A DNA stretch of 64,000 bases, from assembly GCA_039725955.1 (NCBI GenBank), contig CP091034.1, forward strand, positions 558,001-622,000, read 5' to 3'. A program made the position numbers and the translations under genes. The notes beneath the pieces were generated by a model that saw nothing but the letters and a program-made list of their open reading frames with translations, ran no database searches and was not told the origin of the DNA. The DNA is from Sinorhizobium sp. B11 (GTDB lineage: Bacteria > Pseudomonadota > Alphaproteobacteria > Rhizobiales > Rhizobiaceae). Positions 2,752 through 64,000 of the stretch are shown piece after piece. How positions within the stretch are numbered: the first letter of the stretch is position 1; every line of letters starts with the position of its first letter.

Positions 2752-2871
2752 AACAAAAGTCAGAAAGCCCGATCTACGAGGTTCACAAATCCCCGTTGAT
2801 TGTGTAGTTTCCGCGCAAATTTTCAGGCGCCTTGCGCCTTTTTACCCAACACACAGGAAGAAAACCCTTAT

Positions 2872-3090
2872 ATGCCGAAAGAAGAAGTCCTCGAATTCCC
2901 GGGCATCGTGACCGAACTTCTGCCGAATGCGACGTTCCGCGTGAAGCTCGAAAACGAGCATGAGATCATTGCCCACACCGCCGGCCGCATGCGCAAGAAC
3001 CGCATCCGCGTTCTCGCCGGCGACAAGGTTCTGGTCGAAATGACGCCCTACGACCTGACGAAGGGCCGCATCACCTACCGCTTCAAGTAA
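2872..3090 (+). CDS. infA: Translation initiation factor IF-1
   Basis: 72 residues, exactly the usual IF-1 size, with the S1/OB-fold signature: an N-terminal [11 protein letters not shown], then [32 protein letters not shown] and a C-terminal [12 protein letters not shown]-1 binds the A site of the 30S subunit during initiation. ATG at 2872 follows AGGAAGAAAAC. There is 120 bp between the phosphatase stop and this start, enough for its own promoter, as expected for an essential translation gene. It is followed 58 bp later by maf. Confidence 0.98.
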
Positions 3091-31619: not shown

Positions 31620-31997
31620 TTGCGTGTGCCTTGTAGCAGCGATGCAACTCTGTGCCAGTATTTACTAGGTCAAGTCTGGCGAATTGTTTCAAAAGCTATC
31701 GACGCGAAGGGCTTATTAACCTTCAAGCAAGGAATTAACCATAAACATTGGGTTACACGTCGGAATGGGAAGATGCACTCGTTCCCACCAGGCATGACGC
31801 CGCCCCGCCGTACCGGGTCGATCCGGTATCCATCTCTTCAGGCAGCTCCGAAACAGAATTGCTGATCAGGAGGCTTCAGTCCGTCGGTCGTTACCGATGG
31901 CGAAGACGGTCTCCGTGCGTAGCGTTCTTCGGAAACGTCAAAAGTTTTTGGCCGGGTTAGCCCGGAAAGTGGTTGGGGACAGGCGTTGGGGCAGGAT

Positions 31998-59046: not shown

Positions 59047-60966
59047 TCAGTCGTTCGAGCCGAAAGGCTCGGTGCGCGACGGTAGGGCGGGAACGTCGAT
59101 GTGGTCAGGGGTGAGGCCGTTTTTCCGCCGCTCGATGATCAGCTCGTAGCCGCGCTCGAGATGATGGCAGAAACGTTCCGCATCGAAGAGCGGCGCGATA
59201 TAGCGCTTGTCCTTCAGATGGTTCTTGTAGCCCGCGACACGTTCCGGATTGAGCGCGAGCTCGACGGCGAGATCCTCGTAGGCACCGAGATCGTCGGCGA
59301 CGAGTTCCGGCAGATCGATTGCCCTCAACAGGCTTTCGCTGACGCGTGAGGCGAAGTTCGTGCCCTTCATCGTCAGAACAGGAAGACCGCCCCAGAGCTG
59401 TTCCGAAGTGGTCGTGTGTCCATTGACAGGGAATGTATCGATGCCGAGATCGGCCGCCTGCTGACGGCTGATATGCACTTCATAGGGCGCACGCGGGCAG
59501 AAGATGATCCGTTTCGCCGAGATACCATTGGCCTGGAAGCGCGCCAGCAGATTGTCCTTGTTGCGGGACGTATTTGCCATCAGCCAGAGCACGCTGTCGG
59601 GCGCACGCTTGAGGATCCTGGACCAGCTGTCGACGACCTCGGAGGTGATCTTTCGGTTGCCGTTGAACGAGGCGAAAATGAAGGCATCTTCCGGGAGGCC
59701 CAGCTCTGCCCGCGTGACAGGCTGCGGCCGCGGGCGGTTTGCCGGATCGTTCGGCTGGTAGCTTTCCGGCATGCGCAGGAATTTCTCGTGATAGAAAGGC
59801 TTGGCGACGTCAGGCAGCACCGAGTGGTCGCCAATGACGTAGTCGAGGTCGATATTGACCGTGCTGCCGGGGAAGCCCAGCCAGGCGACCTGGATCGGCG
59901 CCAGCGGCTGATTGAAGGACGACGCGCGGCTTCCCGAGGTGTGGCCCTTGAGGTCGACCATGATGTCGATGTTCTCGGCGCGAACGGCATTCAGGACAGC
60001 GGCGTCCGACAGGCCGTATGTATTGACGATCTTGCCCCAGCGGCTGCGATCGGCGACGTTCTTCTCCAGAAACTCGGGCTGGGTGTGATCGAAGAGCGTG
60101 ATTTCGAACCGGTTGCGATCATGAAGCTCGAGAACCCGCTGCAGCAGCTTCATCGTCGCGTGACCGTCCCACAAGTCCGAGGACATGTAGCCGATGCGGA
60201 TCTTGTCGGACCAGGTATGCGGCAGACCGCGTCGATAACCCACGCGCACGGGGTCTAGCGGCTGCGTGCCGATCGTCGCATAGCGATTGAAATCCTCGTC
60301 GCCGCACCAATGCAGATGATAGAACGGATTGTCCTTCCTCAGCGTATCGATGTCGCCCTTGGCAAGGGCAGCGTCGATAGGCGCCTGATGTTTGTTCGCC
60401 TCATCGAATTCGTTGAATTCGCGCACGCAGACGAGATACAGAAAACGGAAGGCGAGGTTGCCCGGGAAGCGCCGGAAGAGGTTGCGGGCGAGCTGCTGGT
60501 TCGTCTCGTCCATGAGGTCGTCGTTGAGCAGCAGCGCGGCAAGGCGCATATGATCCGGGTTCATGCTCTCGGACAGGATTTTCTTGAACGGGCGCAGCAG
60601 ATCCCGCCGCTGCCGGCGTACATAGATTGTCGAGATAATGAATGCGAGTTCGGCATCTTCCTGAGCCTTGCCGAGATTGCGCATCGCGATCAGCAGGGCG
60701 TCGTCGTCGTTGCCGGCTTCCAGGTGGAGTTTGGCGGCAGTCTTCAGGAATTCGAACCCGCCTTGCCCGGCGCAGTCGGCTGCGAGGCCATAGGCCTTGG
60801 CTGCATCGGACTTGAAGCCCAGTTGCAACAGGTTCTTGGCCAGGAGGGCGTAGGTCTTGGCGTCCTTCTGAGTGTCGATGAGCTGGTTGAGCGTCGCCAG
60901 AGATTGTGTATAGCGGCCCGCCTGATAGTCGCGGGATGCCGCCGAGAACGAAACTTTGCTGTTCAA
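59047..60966 (-). CDS. TPR/GT41 (OGT-like) glycosyltransferase
   Basis: 639 residues, soluble. N-terminal helical repeats (about 1-200) resemble TPRs. The catalytic region resembles eukaryotic OGT/SPINDLY: IRIGYMSSDLWDGHATMKLLQRV (His), DIMVDLKGHTSGSRASSFNQPLAPIQVAWLGFPGST, FASFNGNRKITSEVVDSWSRILKRAPDSVLWL (Lys at the catalytic position) and DTFPVNGHTTTSEQLWGGLPVLTM (UDP-binding His-Thr-Thr). Likely transfers GlcNAc or a related sugar to Ser/Thr of proteins. Its location just before flaA, converging on fliP, makes flagellin a good candidate substrate; this is an inference. Confidence 0.9.
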   Translation of the reverse strand: MNSKVSFSAASRDYQAGRYTQSLATLNQLIDTQKDAKTYALLAKNLLQLGFKSDAAKAYGLAADCAGQGGFEFLKTAAKLHLEAGNDDDALLIAMRNLGKAQEDAELAFIISTIYVRRQRRDLLRPFKKILSESMNPDHMRLAALLLNDDLMDETNQQLARNLFRRFPGNLAFRFLYLVCVREFNEFDEANKHQAPIDAALAKGDIDTLRKDNPFYHLHWCGDEDFNRYATIGTQPLDPVRVGYRRGLPHTWSDKIRIGYMSSDLWDGHATMKLLQRVLELHDRNRFEITLFDHTQPEFLEKNVADRSRWGKIVNTYGLSDAAVLNAVRAENIDIMVDLKGHTSGSRASSFNQPLAPIQVAWLGFPGSTVNIDLDYVIGDHSVLPDVAKPFYHEKFLRMPESYQPNDPANRPRPQPVTRAELGLPEDAFIFASFNGNRKITSEVVDSWSRILKRAPDSVLWLMANTSRNKDNLLARFQANGISAKRIIFCPRAPYEVHISRQQAADLGIDTFPVNGHTTTSEQLWGGLPVLTMKGTNFASRVSESLLRAIDLPELVADDLGAYEDLAVELALNPERVAGYKNHLKDKRYIAPLFDAERFCHHLERGYELIIERRKNGLTPDHIDVPALPSRTEPFGSND

Positions 60967-61155
60967 AACCTAACTCCGTGAGGAAATGTTCCGGCATGAA
61001 ATGGTGATCGACGGGCGCGCAATCGGACCGTCCCGCTAAAAGCAGGTTGCCCGACGATACTATCCCGGCTTCTGCCATACTGGCATTCGAAGCTTGCTTG
61101 AAACCGGTGCAGTCGCACACCCGCTTTCCGGGAAAGCTGCTTCCTGGAAGACAAA

Positions 61156-61171
61156 TTCAAGTAACATTAAC
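61156..61171 (+). promoter_or_regulatory. CtrA-like box upstream of flaA
   Basis: TTCA-N7-TTAAC, one mismatch from the CtrA consensus TTAA-N7-TTAA(C), followed by CAT as in the other two flagellin genes. Located 198 bp upstream of the start. Confidence 0.5.
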
Positions 61172-61284
61172 CATGGAATTGAAGCGACTTGGCCGACCCC
61201 TCGGCTTTTAAGAAGTTGGCAAGTATTGGCTGCGAGATTGCCCTCGACATGACGGGTTTGGGCCAAGAGATAAAGGCACCGAGT

Positions 61285-61360
61285 GGCATGAAGCTGGTCC
61301 GTCATCGCCGGTATTTATAGTCCGGTATGTCCTCCTTTTTGTATCTAGTTTTTCTAGGGG
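61285..61360 (+). promoter_or_regulatory. Conserved flaA mRNA leader with two hairpins
   Basis: Contains GGCATGAAGCTG (61285-61296), hairpin I (CCGG 61308-61311 with CCGG 61322-61325, followed by TATGTCC), and hairpin II (CTAG 61345-61348 with CTAG 61354-61357) whose 3' arm runs into the AGGGG ribosome site 8 bp before the start. The same layout occurs upstream of flaB and flaC. A FlbT-type regulator could bind here (inference). Confidence 0.6.
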
Positions 61361-61368
61361 ACACACTT

Positions 61369-62274
61369 ATGACGAGCATTAACACGAACACTTCCGCCCA
61401 GGCCGCTCTCCAGACGCTGCGTAACGTCAACCAGGGCCTCAACACCACGCAGAACCACGTTTCGACGGGTTACCGCGTTGGCAAGGCTTCCGACAACGCT
61501 GCTTACTGGTCGATCGCAACGACCATGCGTTCGGACAACAAGGCTCTCGGCGCTGTTTCGGACGCCCTCGGCCTCGGTGCTGCAAAGGTTGACACTGCCT
61601 ATACCGCCATGGACAGCGCTATCGACGTCGTCGGCGAAATCAAGGCCAAGATCGTTGCCGCTACCGAAAACGGCGTCGACAAGAAGAAGGTTCAGGAAGA
61701 AATCGACCAGCTGCAGGACCAGCTGGTAAGCATCGCTCAGTCGGCTTCCTTCTCCGGTGAAAACTGGGTTGCTGGCGCCAGCGGCACGAAGAGCGTTGTT
61801 TCTTCCTTCGTTCGCGATGGCTCGAACGGCGTATCCGTCAAGATGACCGATTACGTCCTGGACAACAGCTCGGTCGGCAACGTCATGTTCGGCATGACCA
61901 ACGGTCAGGTCGAAACCTCCACGGGTATCCTCGGCACCTCCTACGGCCCGACCGGCTCGGTCTACGGCCTCGACATCACCAGCATGACCCTCGGCGACCT
62001 CGGCAACGCTCTGACGACCGTTGAAAACGCTCTGAAGGCCATGACCTCTGCCGGTGCAAAGCTCGGTTCGATCTCCACCCGCATCAACATGCAGGACGAT
62101 TTCGTCAACTCGCTCAGCAAGTCGCTCGACTCCGGTATCGGTCGCCTCGTCGACGCCAACATGGAAGAAGAGTCCTCCAGGCTCTCTGCTCTCCAGACGC
62201 AGCAGCAGCTCGCGATCCAGTCTCTCTCGATCGCCAACTCTTCTTCGCAGAACATCCTGTCGCTCTTCCGCTAA
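61369..62274 (+). CDS. flaA: Flagellin FlaA
   Basis: 301 residues, the short flagellin size of rhizobia, with conserved N-terminal (NTSAQAALQTLRNVNQGLNTTQNHVSTGYRVGKASDNAAYWSIATTMRSDN) and C-terminal (QTQQQLAIQSLSIANSSSQNILSLFR) coiled D0/D1 domains and a small variable middle (about 135-215). No cysteine. Ser/Thr-rich middle offers sites for O-glycosylation. ATG at 61369 has AGGGGACACACTT; an in-frame ATG at 61327 lies within the leader and is less likely. It shares 403 identical consecutive bases with flaB. Confidence 0.97.
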   Translation: MTSINTNTSAQAALQTLRNVNQGLNTTQNHVSTGYRVGKASDNAAYWSIATTMRSDNKALGAVSDALGLGAAKVDTAYTAMDSAIDVVGEIKAKIVAATENGVDKKKVQEEIDQLQDQLVSIAQSASFSGENWVAGASGTKSVVSSFVRDGSNGVSVKMTDYVLDNSSVGNVMFGMTNGQVETSTGILGTSYGPTGSVYGLDITSMTLGDLGNALTTVENALKAMTSAGAKLGSISTRINMQDDFVNSLSKSLDSGIGRLVDANMEEESSRLSALQTQQQLAIQSLSIANSSSQNILSLFR

Positions 62275-62303
62275 GAGCGGTCCAGCAACATCGCCAAAAA
62301 CGT

Positions 62304-62340
62304 CGAGGCCGGGTAACCCCCGGCCTCGAATGTTTTAATT
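62304..62340 (+). terminator. Rho-independent terminator after flaA
   Basis: Perfect 10-bp stem CGAGGCCGGG / CCCGGCCTCG (62304-62313 with 62319-62328), 5-base loop, followed by AATGTTTTAATTTT. It ends the flaA transcript, so flaB has its own promoter. Confidence 0.92.
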
Positions 62341-62350
62341 TTCGGTTAAT
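62335..62350 (+). promoter_or_regulatory. CtrA-like site TTAA-N7-TTAA upstream of flaB
   Basis: Perfect TTAA-N7-TTAA, with T after the second half-site instead of C. Overlaps the tail of the flaA terminator, 205 bp upstream of the flaB start, so it may also be a coincidence of the T-rich tail. Confidence 0.4.
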
Positions 62351-62398
62351 GAAAACCTTTCTAACTATCAGATATTTTTACGAAATTCCATTTTTGAA

Positions 62399-62414
62399 TT
62401 TAGTTTTCTTTAAC
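62399..62414 (+). promoter_or_regulatory. CtrA-like box upstream of flaB
   Basis: TTTA-N7-TTAAC followed by CAT, at the same place relative to the flanking promoter motif as in flaC. It begins a 47-bp block (62410-62456) ending in GTTAACC that is shared with flaC in spaced motifs (TTAACCAT.TTG.T.TTTTCT). Confidence 0.5.
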
Positions 62415-62468
62415 CATCTTGGTGTTTTCTAAGCCCATCGAAACGGCGAGTTAACCCTGACGAGAATG

Positions 62469-62546
62469 GTTAACAGGCATGAAGCTGATCGCTGTGGGCC
62501 GGCCCAAATCCGGAATGTCCCTTCTTCAAATCTGCCAAAAGGGGCA
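62469..62546 (+). promoter_or_regulatory. Conserved flaB mRNA leader with two hairpins
   Basis: GTTAAC (62469-62474), GGCATGAAGCTGATCG, hairpin I (CCGG 62499-62502 with CCGG 62510-62513, then AATGTCC) and hairpin II (TGCC 62533-62536 with GGCA 62543-62546) whose 3' arm overlaps the AAGGGG ribosome site 10 bp before the ATG. Same order of elements as flaA and flaC. Confidence 0.65.
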
Positions 62547-62554
62547 AGAAAACT

Positions 62555-63463
62555 ATGACCAGCATCAACACCAATAACGCAGCAATGGCTGCTCTCCAGA
62601 CGCTGCGCGGCATCAACCAGGGCCTCAACACGACGCAGAACCACGTTTCCTCTGGTTACCGTATCGCCAAGGCTTCCGACAACGCTGCTTACTGGTCGAT
62701 CGCAACGACCATGCGTTCGGACAATAAGGCGCTCTCGGCTGTTTCCGACGCCCTCGGCCTCGGCGCTGCAAAGGTTGACACTGCCTACACCGCCATGGAC
62801 AGCGCTATCGACGTCGTCGGCGAAATCAAGGCCAAGATCGTTGCCGCTACCGAAAACGGCGTCGACAAGAAGAAGGTTCAGGAAGAAATCGACCAGCTGC
62901 AGGACCAGCTGGTAAGCATCGCTCAGTCGGCTTCCTTCTCCGGTGAAAACTGGGTTGCTGGCGCCAGCGGCACGAAGAGCGTTGTTTCTTCCTTCGTTCG
63001 CGATGGCTCGAACGGCGTATCCGTCAAGATGACCGATTACGTCCTGGACAACAGCTCGGTCGGCAACGTCATGTTCGGCATGACCAACGGTCAGGTCGAA
63101 ACCTCCACGGGTATCCTCGGCACCTCCTACGGCCCGACCGGCTCGGTCTACGGCCTCGACATCACCAGCATGACCCTCGGCGACCTCGGCACGGCTCTGA
63201 CGACCGTTGAAAACGCTCTGAAGGCCATGACCTCTGCCGGTGCAAAGCTCGGTTCGATCTCCACCCGCATCACCATGCAGGACGATTTCGTCAACTCGCT
63301 CTCCGACTCGATCGACTCCGGTGTTGGCCGCCTCGTCGACGCCAACATGGAAGAAGAGTCCTCCAAGCTCTCTGCTCTCCAGACGCAGCAGCAGCTCGCG
63401 ATCCAGTCTCTCTCGATCGCCAACTCTTCTTCGCAGAACATCCTGTCGCTCTTCCGCGGCTAA
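62555..63463 (+). CDS. flaB: Flagellin FlaB
   Basis: 302 residues, very close to FlaA: differences cluster in the first 80 residues (NNAAMAALQTLRGINQGL) and near residue 250 (SLSDSIDSGVGRLVDANMEEESSKL); the middle 134 or so residues are identical to FlaA in both protein and DNA. Same D0/D1 ends as FlaA plus a final Gly. Part of the filament, mixed with FlaA and others. Has its own promoter region, leader and terminator. Confidence 0.97.
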   Translation: MTSINTNNAAMAALQTLRGINQGLNTTQNHVSSGYRIAKASDNAAYWSIATTMRSDNKALSAVSDALGLGAAKVDTAYTAMDSAIDVVGEIKAKIVAATENGVDKKKVQEEIDQLQDQLVSIAQSASFSGENWVAGASGTKSVVSSFVRDGSNGVSVKMTDYVLDNSSVGNVMFGMTNGQVETSTGILGTSYGPTGSVYGLDITSMTLGDLGTALTTVENALKAMTSAGAKLGSISTRITMQDDFVNSLSDSIDSGVGRLVDANMEEESSKLSALQTQQQLAIQSLSIANSSSQNILSLFRG

Positions 63464-63515
63464 TAGGATCTCGAAATATAACCCGTCGGGTAACCGGCGG
63501 GTCCTATCGAAATCG

Positions 63516-63546
63516 AGCCGCGCTTCGATGGAGCGCGGCTTTTTTT
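63516..63546 (+). terminator. Rho-independent terminator after flaB
   Basis: Perfect 9-bp stem AGCCGCGCT / AGCGCGGCT (63516-63524 with 63532-63540), 7-base loop and TTTTTT directly after. Separates flaB from flaC. Confidence 0.95.
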
Positions 63547-63554
63547 AATTTCCG

Positions 63555-63570
63555 TTAACGATTGATTAAC
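63555..63570 (+). promoter_or_regulatory. CtrA box upstream of flaC
   Basis: Perfect TTAA-N7-TTAAC followed by CAT, 148 bp upstream of the start, in the same position as the flaB and flaA boxes. Confidence 0.65.
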
Positions 63571-63617
63571 CATATTGCTATTTTCTGCGTCTCAACGAGA
63601 CGACGAGTTAACCAAAT

Positions 63618-63633
63618 TTAAGAACGGGTTAAC
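63618..63633 (+). promoter_or_regulatory. Second CtrA box upstream of flaC
   Basis: Perfect TTAA-N7-TTAAC. Its right half is the conserved GTTAAC directly before AGGCATGAAG, the motif seen upstream of flaB as well, where the left half is not conserved. Confidence 0.5.
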
Positions 63634-63709
63634 AGGCATGAAGGCTGATCGTCGTTCCCGGGCGCTATTCCCGAATGTCCCTTTTATTAATGTCTGCCAA
63701 CAAGGGGCA
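63628..63709 (+). promoter_or_regulatory. Conserved flaC mRNA leader with two hairpins
   Basis: GTTAAC (63628-63633), GGCATGAAGGCTGATCG, hairpin I (CGGG 63659-63662 with CCCG 63670-63673, then AATGTCC) and hairpin II (TGCC 63695-63698 with GGCA 63706-63709) overlapping the AAGGGG ribosome site. Relative to flaA and flaB one base pair of hairpin I is swapped (C-G to G-C), a compensatory change. Confidence 0.65.
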
Positions 63710-63717
63710 ATCATTTC

Positions 63718-64000
63718 ATGACCAGCATTTTGACCAACGTCGCGGCCATGGCCGCTCTCCAGACACTCCGCGGCATCAGCAATAATCTTCAGGATACTCA
63801 AAATCGCGTATCTTCCGGCTATCGCGTTGAAAAGGCAGCAGACAACGCAGCTTATTGGTCCATCGCAACGACCATGCGTTCGGACAACAAGGCTCTTTCC
63901 GCAGTCTCCGACGCTCTCGGTCTCGGCGCTGCAAAGGTCGACACGGCCTACACGGCCATGGACAACGCCATCGACGTCGTCAGCGAAATCAAGTCCAAGA
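63718..64000 (+). CDS. flaC: Flagellin FlaC (partial, cut by window end)
   Basis: The first 94 residues of a third flagellin: SILTNVAAMAALQTLRGISNNLQDTQNRVSSGYRVEKAADNAAYWSIATTMRSDNKALSAVSDALGLGAAKVDTAYTAMDNAIDVVSEIKSK. The N-terminal D0/D1 domain is as in FlaA/FlaB but the sequence is more diverged, both in protein (NNLQDTQN, VEKAAD) and in silent sites. It runs off the right edge of the window. Confidence 0.95.
   Translation, partial: MTSILTNVAAMAALQTLRGISNNLQDTQNRVSSGYRVEKAADNAAYWSIATTMRSDNKALSAVSDALGLGAAKVDTAYTAMDNAIDVVSEIKSK

Follow-up and report, generated by a model that had tools for sequence, protein, structure and literature searches.

A structured leader RNA common to flagellin and chemotaxis genes of the Rhizobiaceae and allied families

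Three flagellin leaders share one RNA fold

We analysed the leaders of three flagellin genes, flaA, flaB and flaC, which lie among other flagellar genes (open reading frames, ORFs, identified by eye) at the end of a 64,000-nt stretch of the 7.37-Mb genome of Sinorhizobium sp. B11 (G000:C2:558001-622000; henceforth the window). We found that the three leaders share a single fold of about 120 nt, which is almost certainly a real RNA element: a three-way junction made of an outer helix (P1), a variable hairpin (P2) and a hairpin with an AUGA loop (P3), followed by a CCGG hairpin (P4) and a hairpin containing the putative Shine-Dalgarno (SD) sequence (P5). Unconstrained minimum-free-energy (MFE) folding of the three window leaders, cut at P1, returned the proposed structure. 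The initial annotation of the window had noticed pieces of this element, and these were recovered, among them the motif GGCATGAAG(G)CTG, found at 61285, 62476 and 63635, and a 4-bp hairpin with arms CCGG/CCGG (inside 61307-61326 and at 62499-62513) or CGGG/CCCG (at 63659-63673). The features of the locus are as follows (R1 and R2 are covariance models described below).

61208-61225, plus strand: CtrA-like box 5' of the flaA leader, placed by eye using an 18-bp upstream motif
61249-61371, plus strand: flaA leader RNA; unconstrained MFE gives the same fold; 43.9 bits with R1 (out of sample) and 65.9 with R2 (in sample)
flaA leader helices, plus strand: P1 61249-61256/61298-61305, P2 61257-61283, P3 61285-61295, P4 61307-61326, P5 61328-61363 with 3' arm AGGGGACA; AUG at 61369
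61369-62274, plus strand: flaA, flagellin (Pfam Flagellin_N and Flagellin_C)
62399-62416, plus strand: CtrA-like box 5' of the flaB leader, placed by eye
62443-62557, plus strand: flaB leader RNA, matched by R1 and R2; MFE gives this fold
flaB leader helices, plus strand: P1 62443-62449/62489-62495, P2 62450-62474 (GUUAACC/GGUUAAC), P3 62476-62486, P4 62499-62513, P5 62516-62546 with 3' arm AAGGGGCA; AUG at 62555
62555-63463, plus strand: flaB, flagellin (ORF; protein 95% identical to flaA)
63555-63572, plus strand: CtrA-like box TTAA-N7-TTAACC 5' of the flaC leader, placed by eye (CtrA consensus reported as TAA-N7-TTAAC; PMC3616915)
63600-63720, plus strand: flaC leader RNA, matched by R1 and R2; MFE gives this fold
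flaC leader helices, plus strand: P1 63600-63606/63649-63655, P2 63607-63633, P3 63635-63646 (loop longer by one base), P4 63659-63673, P5 63676-63709 with 3' arm AAGGGGCA; AUG at 63718
63718-64000, plus strand: flaC, flagellin (ORF), continuing beyond the window end

Covariation in the leader structure

Leaders were taken from 78 named loci (nearly all Rhizobium) and from 60 stretches with flagellins of the same type, picked after 61 genomes from the family and 101 from the order had been searched. These sources held 456 flagellin starts with sufficient upstream sequence (repeats from overlapping loci counted) and 336 distinct leaders. A GC-AUGA-N-GC site was found 65-106 nt before the start in 308 of the 336 (the site was chosen by score, and its letters are partly selected), while the 28 leaders in which P3 was not clear were dropped. 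When leaders were read side by side, the approximately 7-9 bases just 5' of the CCGG hairpin complemented a stretch about 30 bases upstream of GGCATGA, with sequences that differed widely between leaders. In a first, crude test of this P1 pairing, near-identical relatives among the 308 leaders blurred the signal, and separation from mismatched partners was poor; in 117 non-redundant leaders, the mean best-helix score was 18.2 compared with 15.5 for mismatched partners.

We then used a seed alignment (A4) of 12 diverse leaders in consistent register, aligned with MAFFT without structure (helix columns: P1 3-10/54-61, P2 12-17/33-38, P3 41-43/49-51, P4 62-66/74-78, P5 80-85/115-120); a 25-row seed (A3), whose P1 arms were one column off register between groups, was set aside. 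The choice of rows in A4 favours the structure in a covariation test, with shuffled and slid partners serving as control: 92.6% of cells were paired, where shuffled partners gave 83.3% and slid ones no more than 48.8%, and the covariation score was 0.370 compared with 0.184 for shuffles (reached in 0 of 500). Two-sided changes occurred in 13 pairs (P1 6/8, P2 6/6, P4 1/5). The covariance model R1, built from these 12 leaders with no window sequence included, matched 132 places in 77 sources at E-values up to 0.01, giving a model-fitted alignment of 130 distinct rows (A5). Here 27 of 28 pairs showed two-sided changes, and the covariation score was 0.462, against 0.185 for shuffled and at most 0.066 for slid partners. 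A second model, R2, was built from A5 and was thus trained on four copies from the window.

Because fitted alignments lean towards their own structure and relatives are not independent, we tested the 130 rows against 60 tree-based null alignments, using our own R-scape-like script. Thirteen column pairs reached E < 0.05, all of them within the structure: P1 contributed 7 of its 8 pairs, P2 5 of 6 and P4 1 of 5. P1 and P2 are established by covariation and P4, nearly invariant across A5, is anchored by its outer pair, while P3 and P5 are proposed from conservation, pairing (97.4% and 95.8% paired cells in A5) and position. The suggestion of the initial annotation that flagellin 5' leaders carry a conserved RNA structure was therefore borne out by strong covariation across a broad alignment, although not where it had looked for it. 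The 4-bp hairpin (P4) is real but is a fragment of the larger RNA, with significant covariation in its outermost pair only, and 12 of the 13 significant pairs lie outside it, in P1 and P2. Similarly, the letters of the compensatory C-G to G-C swap proposed for the flaC hairpin are present, but the reading as a swap did not hold: the flaC-type 5' arm CCCGGG recurs in orthologues, and one of these (L100) combines it with an ordinary CCGG 3' arm, so that flaC of the window is most simply explained by one substitution (CCGG to CCCG) and a one-base slip.

Could these repeats be DNA elements, i.e., transcription-factor sites, rather than RNA? In favour of this, GGCATGATGCC is a near-perfect DNA palindrome near the presumed promoter. 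However, nested helices covary, with pairing kept while the sequence varies, and G-U cells outnumber A-C cells by 26 to 6 in A4, 288 to 54 in A5 and 33 to 11 in a further alignment, A6. This three- to five-fold asymmetry between strands (in three alignments of which two are structure-fitted) is as expected for a plus-strand RNA and not for DNA, and makes a DNA element extremely improbable.

Another explanation is that the P1-P4 junction is a small-molecule riboswitch (e.g., for a motility second messenger) with P5 as its expression platform. A three-way junction with an SD-masking hairpin is a common riboswitch layout, and the element is common to flagellin and chemotaxis genes (see below). 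Metabolite riboswitches, however, would be expected to have many conserved unpaired bases forming a pocket; the only positions both conserved and unpaired at 85% or more in the leaders, besides the start codon, were the AUGA of P3 and the A after P4; nor did any Rfam riboswitch family match the leaders. With so few conserved unpaired bases, the junction resembles a protein site more than it does a metabolite pocket, and a riboswitch is distinctly unlikely.

In some paralogues of the R. leguminosarum group (L089, L093, L098 and L101, at about 2800-3000), one long GC-rich hairpin seems to replace P2 and P3, while an outer pairing persists together with the CCGG(A)AUG portion; L089, L093 and L101 score 21-23 bits.

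Occurrence in the genome, at chemotaxis genes and across the order

R1 scored the flaA, flaB and flaC leaders out of sample at 43.9, 42.4 and 40.9 bits (E-values in the own genome, roughly calibrated, of 2.5e-6, 5.5e-6 and 1.2e-5), and the arrangement is beyond chance. Only four places in the genome exceeded 40 bits, namely these three leaders and a fourth copy (40.4 bits out of sample, E-value 1.5e-5; 51.7 bits with R2, in sample). The next was flaD at 22.8 bits, and R2 added flaD (37.1) and a distant paralogue (24.8). By comparison, GGCATGAAG..CTG alone proved unspecific and was rejected as a means of finding the element: it occurred at 16 sites in the genome, against one for the reversed control pattern, with 3 of the 16 at flagellins and 13 away from them. 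Taken alone, the letters are weak evidence; the distinctive features emerge on comparison.

The fourth copy lies 30 kb from the flagellins, before an icpA-cheY-cheA-type operon:

31756-31867, plus strand: fourth copy of the element, with P1-P4 but without the SD-masking P5, before a chemotaxis operon; P3 31791-31801, P4 31812-31827
31986-33626, plus strand: IcpA-type soluble chemoreceptor (protoglobin and methyl-accepting chemotaxis protein, MCP, signalling domain; Pfam), with che-like ORFs next

CheY-, CheA-, CheW- and CheR-like ORFs follow icpA (by eye; downstream genes were examined for the window only). An IcpA protein search of the 61 family genomes returned 30 loci, and R2 matched the 13 closest of these (38-100% identity, a cut-off fixed after seeing which loci matched; weakest match 22.7 bits) as well as 2 of the 17 others; among the 13, the window copy was in the R2 training set and the other 12 were not. 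The structure was also kept in 17 non-flagellin leaders (88.5% paired; 0.398 against 0.135 in covariation score), and the leaders of two MCP genes (L263 and L264) have a clear P5 by eye. The element is thus common to flagellins, the che operon and some MCP genes. We also observed the element together with an SD hairpin at G144:C1:1982114-1982231 (L277), before a 285-aa ORF that retains flagellin-like residues (SAAYWSI) and may be a decayed flagellin or one with a regulatory role.

Using R2, we detected the element in at least 30 of 160 genomes of the order, from 10 families. All 15 genomes with this flagellin type are among the 30 positives, and no other genome up to G159 was positive. The scan of the order scored 24 candidates per genome and that of the class 13, with stricter filters, so that the counts are lower bounds and absences are weak evidence. 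Outside the order, no confirmed element was found among 289 genomes of the class under these strict filters (Caulobacter's inclusion not being established), the matches being the own genome and one other, judged false by eye. The latter (G454, 36.3 bits) consists of repeated GGCATGAAGCCG units next to an hrcA-like ORF.

P5 and the ribosome site

P5 starts one or two bases after P4 and, in flagellin leaders, pairs an AUGUCC string with the putative SD sequence. The initial annotation had listed (T/A)ATGTCC as a string following each hairpin; it is indeed present right after each of them, but not as a free string, AUGUCC being the 5' arm of P5 over the putative SD. GGG occurs in the 3' arm of 110 of the 130 distinct rows and lies 2-9 nt ahead of the final codon of the model, a start codon in 124 of the 130. 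In flagellin leaders the 3' arm carries the putative SD just before the start codon, as in an SD-masking leader, which is not the case in the che copy. Variants of P5 are also seen, e.g., GUCUUUC/GAAAGAC in one genus belonging to another family. Translational control via P5 is probable for the flagellins.

P5 might instead be an RNA thermometer or a constitutive brake on initiation, acting without any trans factor. It is short, with outer U-A or U-G pairs (UGUCCC with GGGGCA or GGGACA), which speaks for such a role; on the other hand, this would leave both the strong covariation of P1 and P2 and the P5-less che copy unexplained, and we consider it very unlikely.

An upstream ORF beginning at the AUG of P3 was also considered and rejected: over 305 leaders its frame relative to the main start was spread 114/112/79, and a stop codon preceded the main start in 146 leaders but not in the other 159.

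A CtrA-like box upstream of P1

The 132 matched rows, less 2 without upstream sequence and 9 redundant ones, were searched for upstream motifs. An 18-bp motif, TTAAnnaTTTGGTAACCA, was present upstream of P1 in 98 of the 121 non-redundant leaders, starting 43 to 37 bp before P1 in 82 of the 98, with a log-likelihood of 465 compared with 60, 61 and 63 in three shuffles. The motif fits the CtrA consensus TAA-N7-TTAAC, as given in a study that reports CtrA motifs at flaA, flaC, flaD and mcpE, among others (PMC3616915); in S. meliloti, CtrA is reported to bind and directly regulate flaA, flaB, flaC and several mcp genes (PMC4433202). As the CtrA-like box would lie over the -35 region, about 40 bp 5' of P1, its position suggests that transcripts start at or near P1. 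Class III genes of R. leguminosarum reportedly also need VisNR and Rem (PMC8429497), a dependence which has no bearing on the leader.

A start near P1 bears on a further explanation, namely that the leader is a 5' stabiliser or an RNase/Hfq landing site for long-lived late motility mRNAs, with P5 as a non-switching standby structure. P1 would stand at the 5' end of the transcript if activation takes place at the CtrA-like box, che copies lack P5, and an Agrobacterium hfq mutant is reported to have lower Fla and FlaB (PMC4201532). In most rows, however, the 3' arm of P5 forms the putative SD, and we regard a purely stabilising role as rather unlikely.

FlbT as a candidate binder

We favour, with some confidence, a translational switch on late motility mRNAs with FlbT as the likeliest binder. 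The leaders stand upstream of flagellins in a genome that encodes FlbT (G000:C2:634539-634910; Pfam, 141.9 bits), with flaF and flbT about 12 kb past the window end (L278). FlbT was found in 29 of the 30 element-positive genomes, the exception (G207) being 86% complete. In a tree of FlbT proteins, the own copy and nine others from element-positive genomes form one clade and eight from element-negative genomes the other (support 1.0), and the N-terminal signatures NGAVLRVDRK and IGESVITNDDQRTR of the two clades match presence or absence of the element in the 18 aligned sequences (L278:12628-13074 and L310-L329; 3 of 20 fetched loci were dropped, having been missed by the ORF script).

Published work describes FlbT as translationally inducing the lateral flagellins LafA1 and LafA2 in Bradyrhizobium (PMC8429497) and as activating flagellin synthesis at the translational level in Brucella (PMC9812332), a paper which also gives a Caulobacter model where FlbT targets class III transcripts for flagellins and Che proteins; Caulobacter FlbT is further reported to interact with the regulatory flagellin FljJ (PMC7591256). 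A masked SD fits an activator role. The FlbT hypothesis thus fits the genome context, the SD-masking hairpin, the che-operon copy and the published FlbT phenotypes, and we put the prediction that FlbT itself binds the leader at an even chance, it being the likeliest candidate.

The FlbT fold model (L278:12628-13074) is confident (predicted local distance difference test, pLDDT, 91.5) and consists of a small beta domain and a helical bundle. The helical part aligns with six entries of the flagellin chaperone FliS (Z 8.2 to 9.4; root-mean-square deviation 2.2-3.2; 79-84 residues), although the highest-ranking row (Z 9.8) is unrelated, the list also includes other helical bundles, and none reaches the Z of about 13 asked for bundles. 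On this model, the bundle could be a flagellin-binding part, which we offer as a lead only. No Foldseek match at E-values up to 0.001 was obtained for the model or for its N-terminal part alone (pLDDT 88.4), whose best structural match was TRAP (Z 3.0), and no CsrA chain was among the structural matches listed for either. A profile comparison of FlbT with CsrA (hhalign; three sequences only on the CsrA side) gave an E-value of 0.066 and a probability of 0.8%. We found no sequence relative of FlbT among solved structures at E-values up to 1, and none in viral contigs.

Under the proposed switch, late (class III) motility mRNAs of Rhizobiaceae and related families would begin with a structured, cis-acting RNA. 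Transcription would be activated from the CtrA-like box and start near P1, and the transcript would fold into the three-way junction of P1, P2 and the AUGA-looped P3, P4 lying directly against P1. In flagellin mRNAs, P5 pairs UGUCCC with a GGG-type putative SD 2-9 nt before the AUG, and this masking would keep default translation low. A factor recognising the P3 loop and P4 would then set the opening of P5; the likeliest candidate is FlbT, with FlaF and unsecreted flagellin assisting or opposing it. The che copy, without P5, would act on mRNA stability or on another initiation site.

Several observations weigh against this proposal. With the tree-based null, no pair in P3 or P5 was individually significant in the 130 rows, and P5 is missing or modified in the che copies and, as judged by eye, in some flagellins. 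Although MFE folding kept P1 in 8 of 10 leaders, the MFE structures of L213 and of the che copy lacked it (the latter retaining P2, P3 and P4). Folding-energy z-scores were unremarkable for flaA, flaB and flaC (-0.43, -0.39 and -0.74), weak for six other leaders (-0.81 to -1.85) and +0.07 for the che copy, and the reverse complement of the flaA leader scored better than the leader itself (-2.09; flaB 1.08, flaC 0.37). Co-occurrence with FlbT is unspecific, FlbT being present in 106 of 160 genomes, mostly without a detected element, and the two FlbT clades may only mirror two flagellar systems. Finally, FlbT is reported as a repressor in Caulobacter (PMC3930126).

More tentatively, and at somewhat less than an even chance, the element might be a hitherto undescribed RNA family at the centre of a post-transcriptional regulon. 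Flagellin mRNAs, the che-operon mRNA and those of some chemoreceptors would share one three-way-junction platform, to which FlbT or an unknown ligand responds; once the hook-basal body is complete, translation of the late motility genes would be released together by this route, FlbT and the element having co-evolved as a lineage-specific pair. Chemotaxis and filament genes would then be tied into one post-transcriptional unit. A review describes the mode of action of FlbT on flagellin mRNA, and the reason for its repressing role in Caulobacter and activating one in Brucella, as unresolved or unclear (PMC4347634); with helices named, an invariant loop and a masked ribosome site, this question becomes testable by point mutants.

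Relation to known RNAs and leaders

Rfam contained no credible family match for these leaders; chance matches to SorX, SorY, sX6, mir-8186 and others were far below gathering and were rejected. The flg-Rhizobiales RNA (RF01736) is described as likewise occurring in Rhizobiales, upstream of flagellar genes and with three stem-loops, but identity with it was ruled out on score, structure and gene context. Its model is 141 nt long with UUGGGAGA/UGGGAG loops, and it had no match in window 60900-64000 (E-values up to 1) or the own genome (E-values up to 0.001), and none at gathering (55 bits) in 18 loci with such leaders. Its two matches in 61 genomes (E-values up to 0.001), below gathering, precede flgF/flgG-like rod genes (by eye), whereas the present element precedes flagellin, che and MCP genes. 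These two (L222 and L223) come from two other families of the order.

Binding of FlbT to the Caulobacter flagellin 5' untranslated region (UTR) was reportedly described by Anderson and Gober in 2000. That system is similar in its post-transcriptional control through the 5' UTR, as far as it is described, and in the presence of FlbT; it differs in that FlbT represses there, while rhizobial and Brucella FlbT are reported to activate. Leaders of the ribosomal-protein type resemble the element by analogy, with a protein-recognised structure 5' of a masked ribosome site, but differ in sequence, genes and proposed ligand. In CsrA/FliW systems (Bacillus, Campylobacter), unsecreted flagellin feeds back on flagellin translation; the logic may be alike, but the FlbT profile showed no significant similarity to CsrA, with three sequences on the CsrA side. 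No description of this RNA was found in the open-access literature (titles and openings of abstracts, with most subscription journals outside this scope), and we class the element as a new RNA family within a known type, the translational leaders.

Other features of the locus

The middles of flaA and flaB (61450-62260 and 62640-63440) look nearly identical, while their leaders differ, which suggests recent gene conversion limited to the coding part. Adjoining the flagellins on the minus strand, a 639-aa ORF (59047-60966) has by eye the look of a tetratricopeptide repeat (TPR) and glycosyltransferase protein and, from its position, could be a putative flagellin glycosyltransferase.

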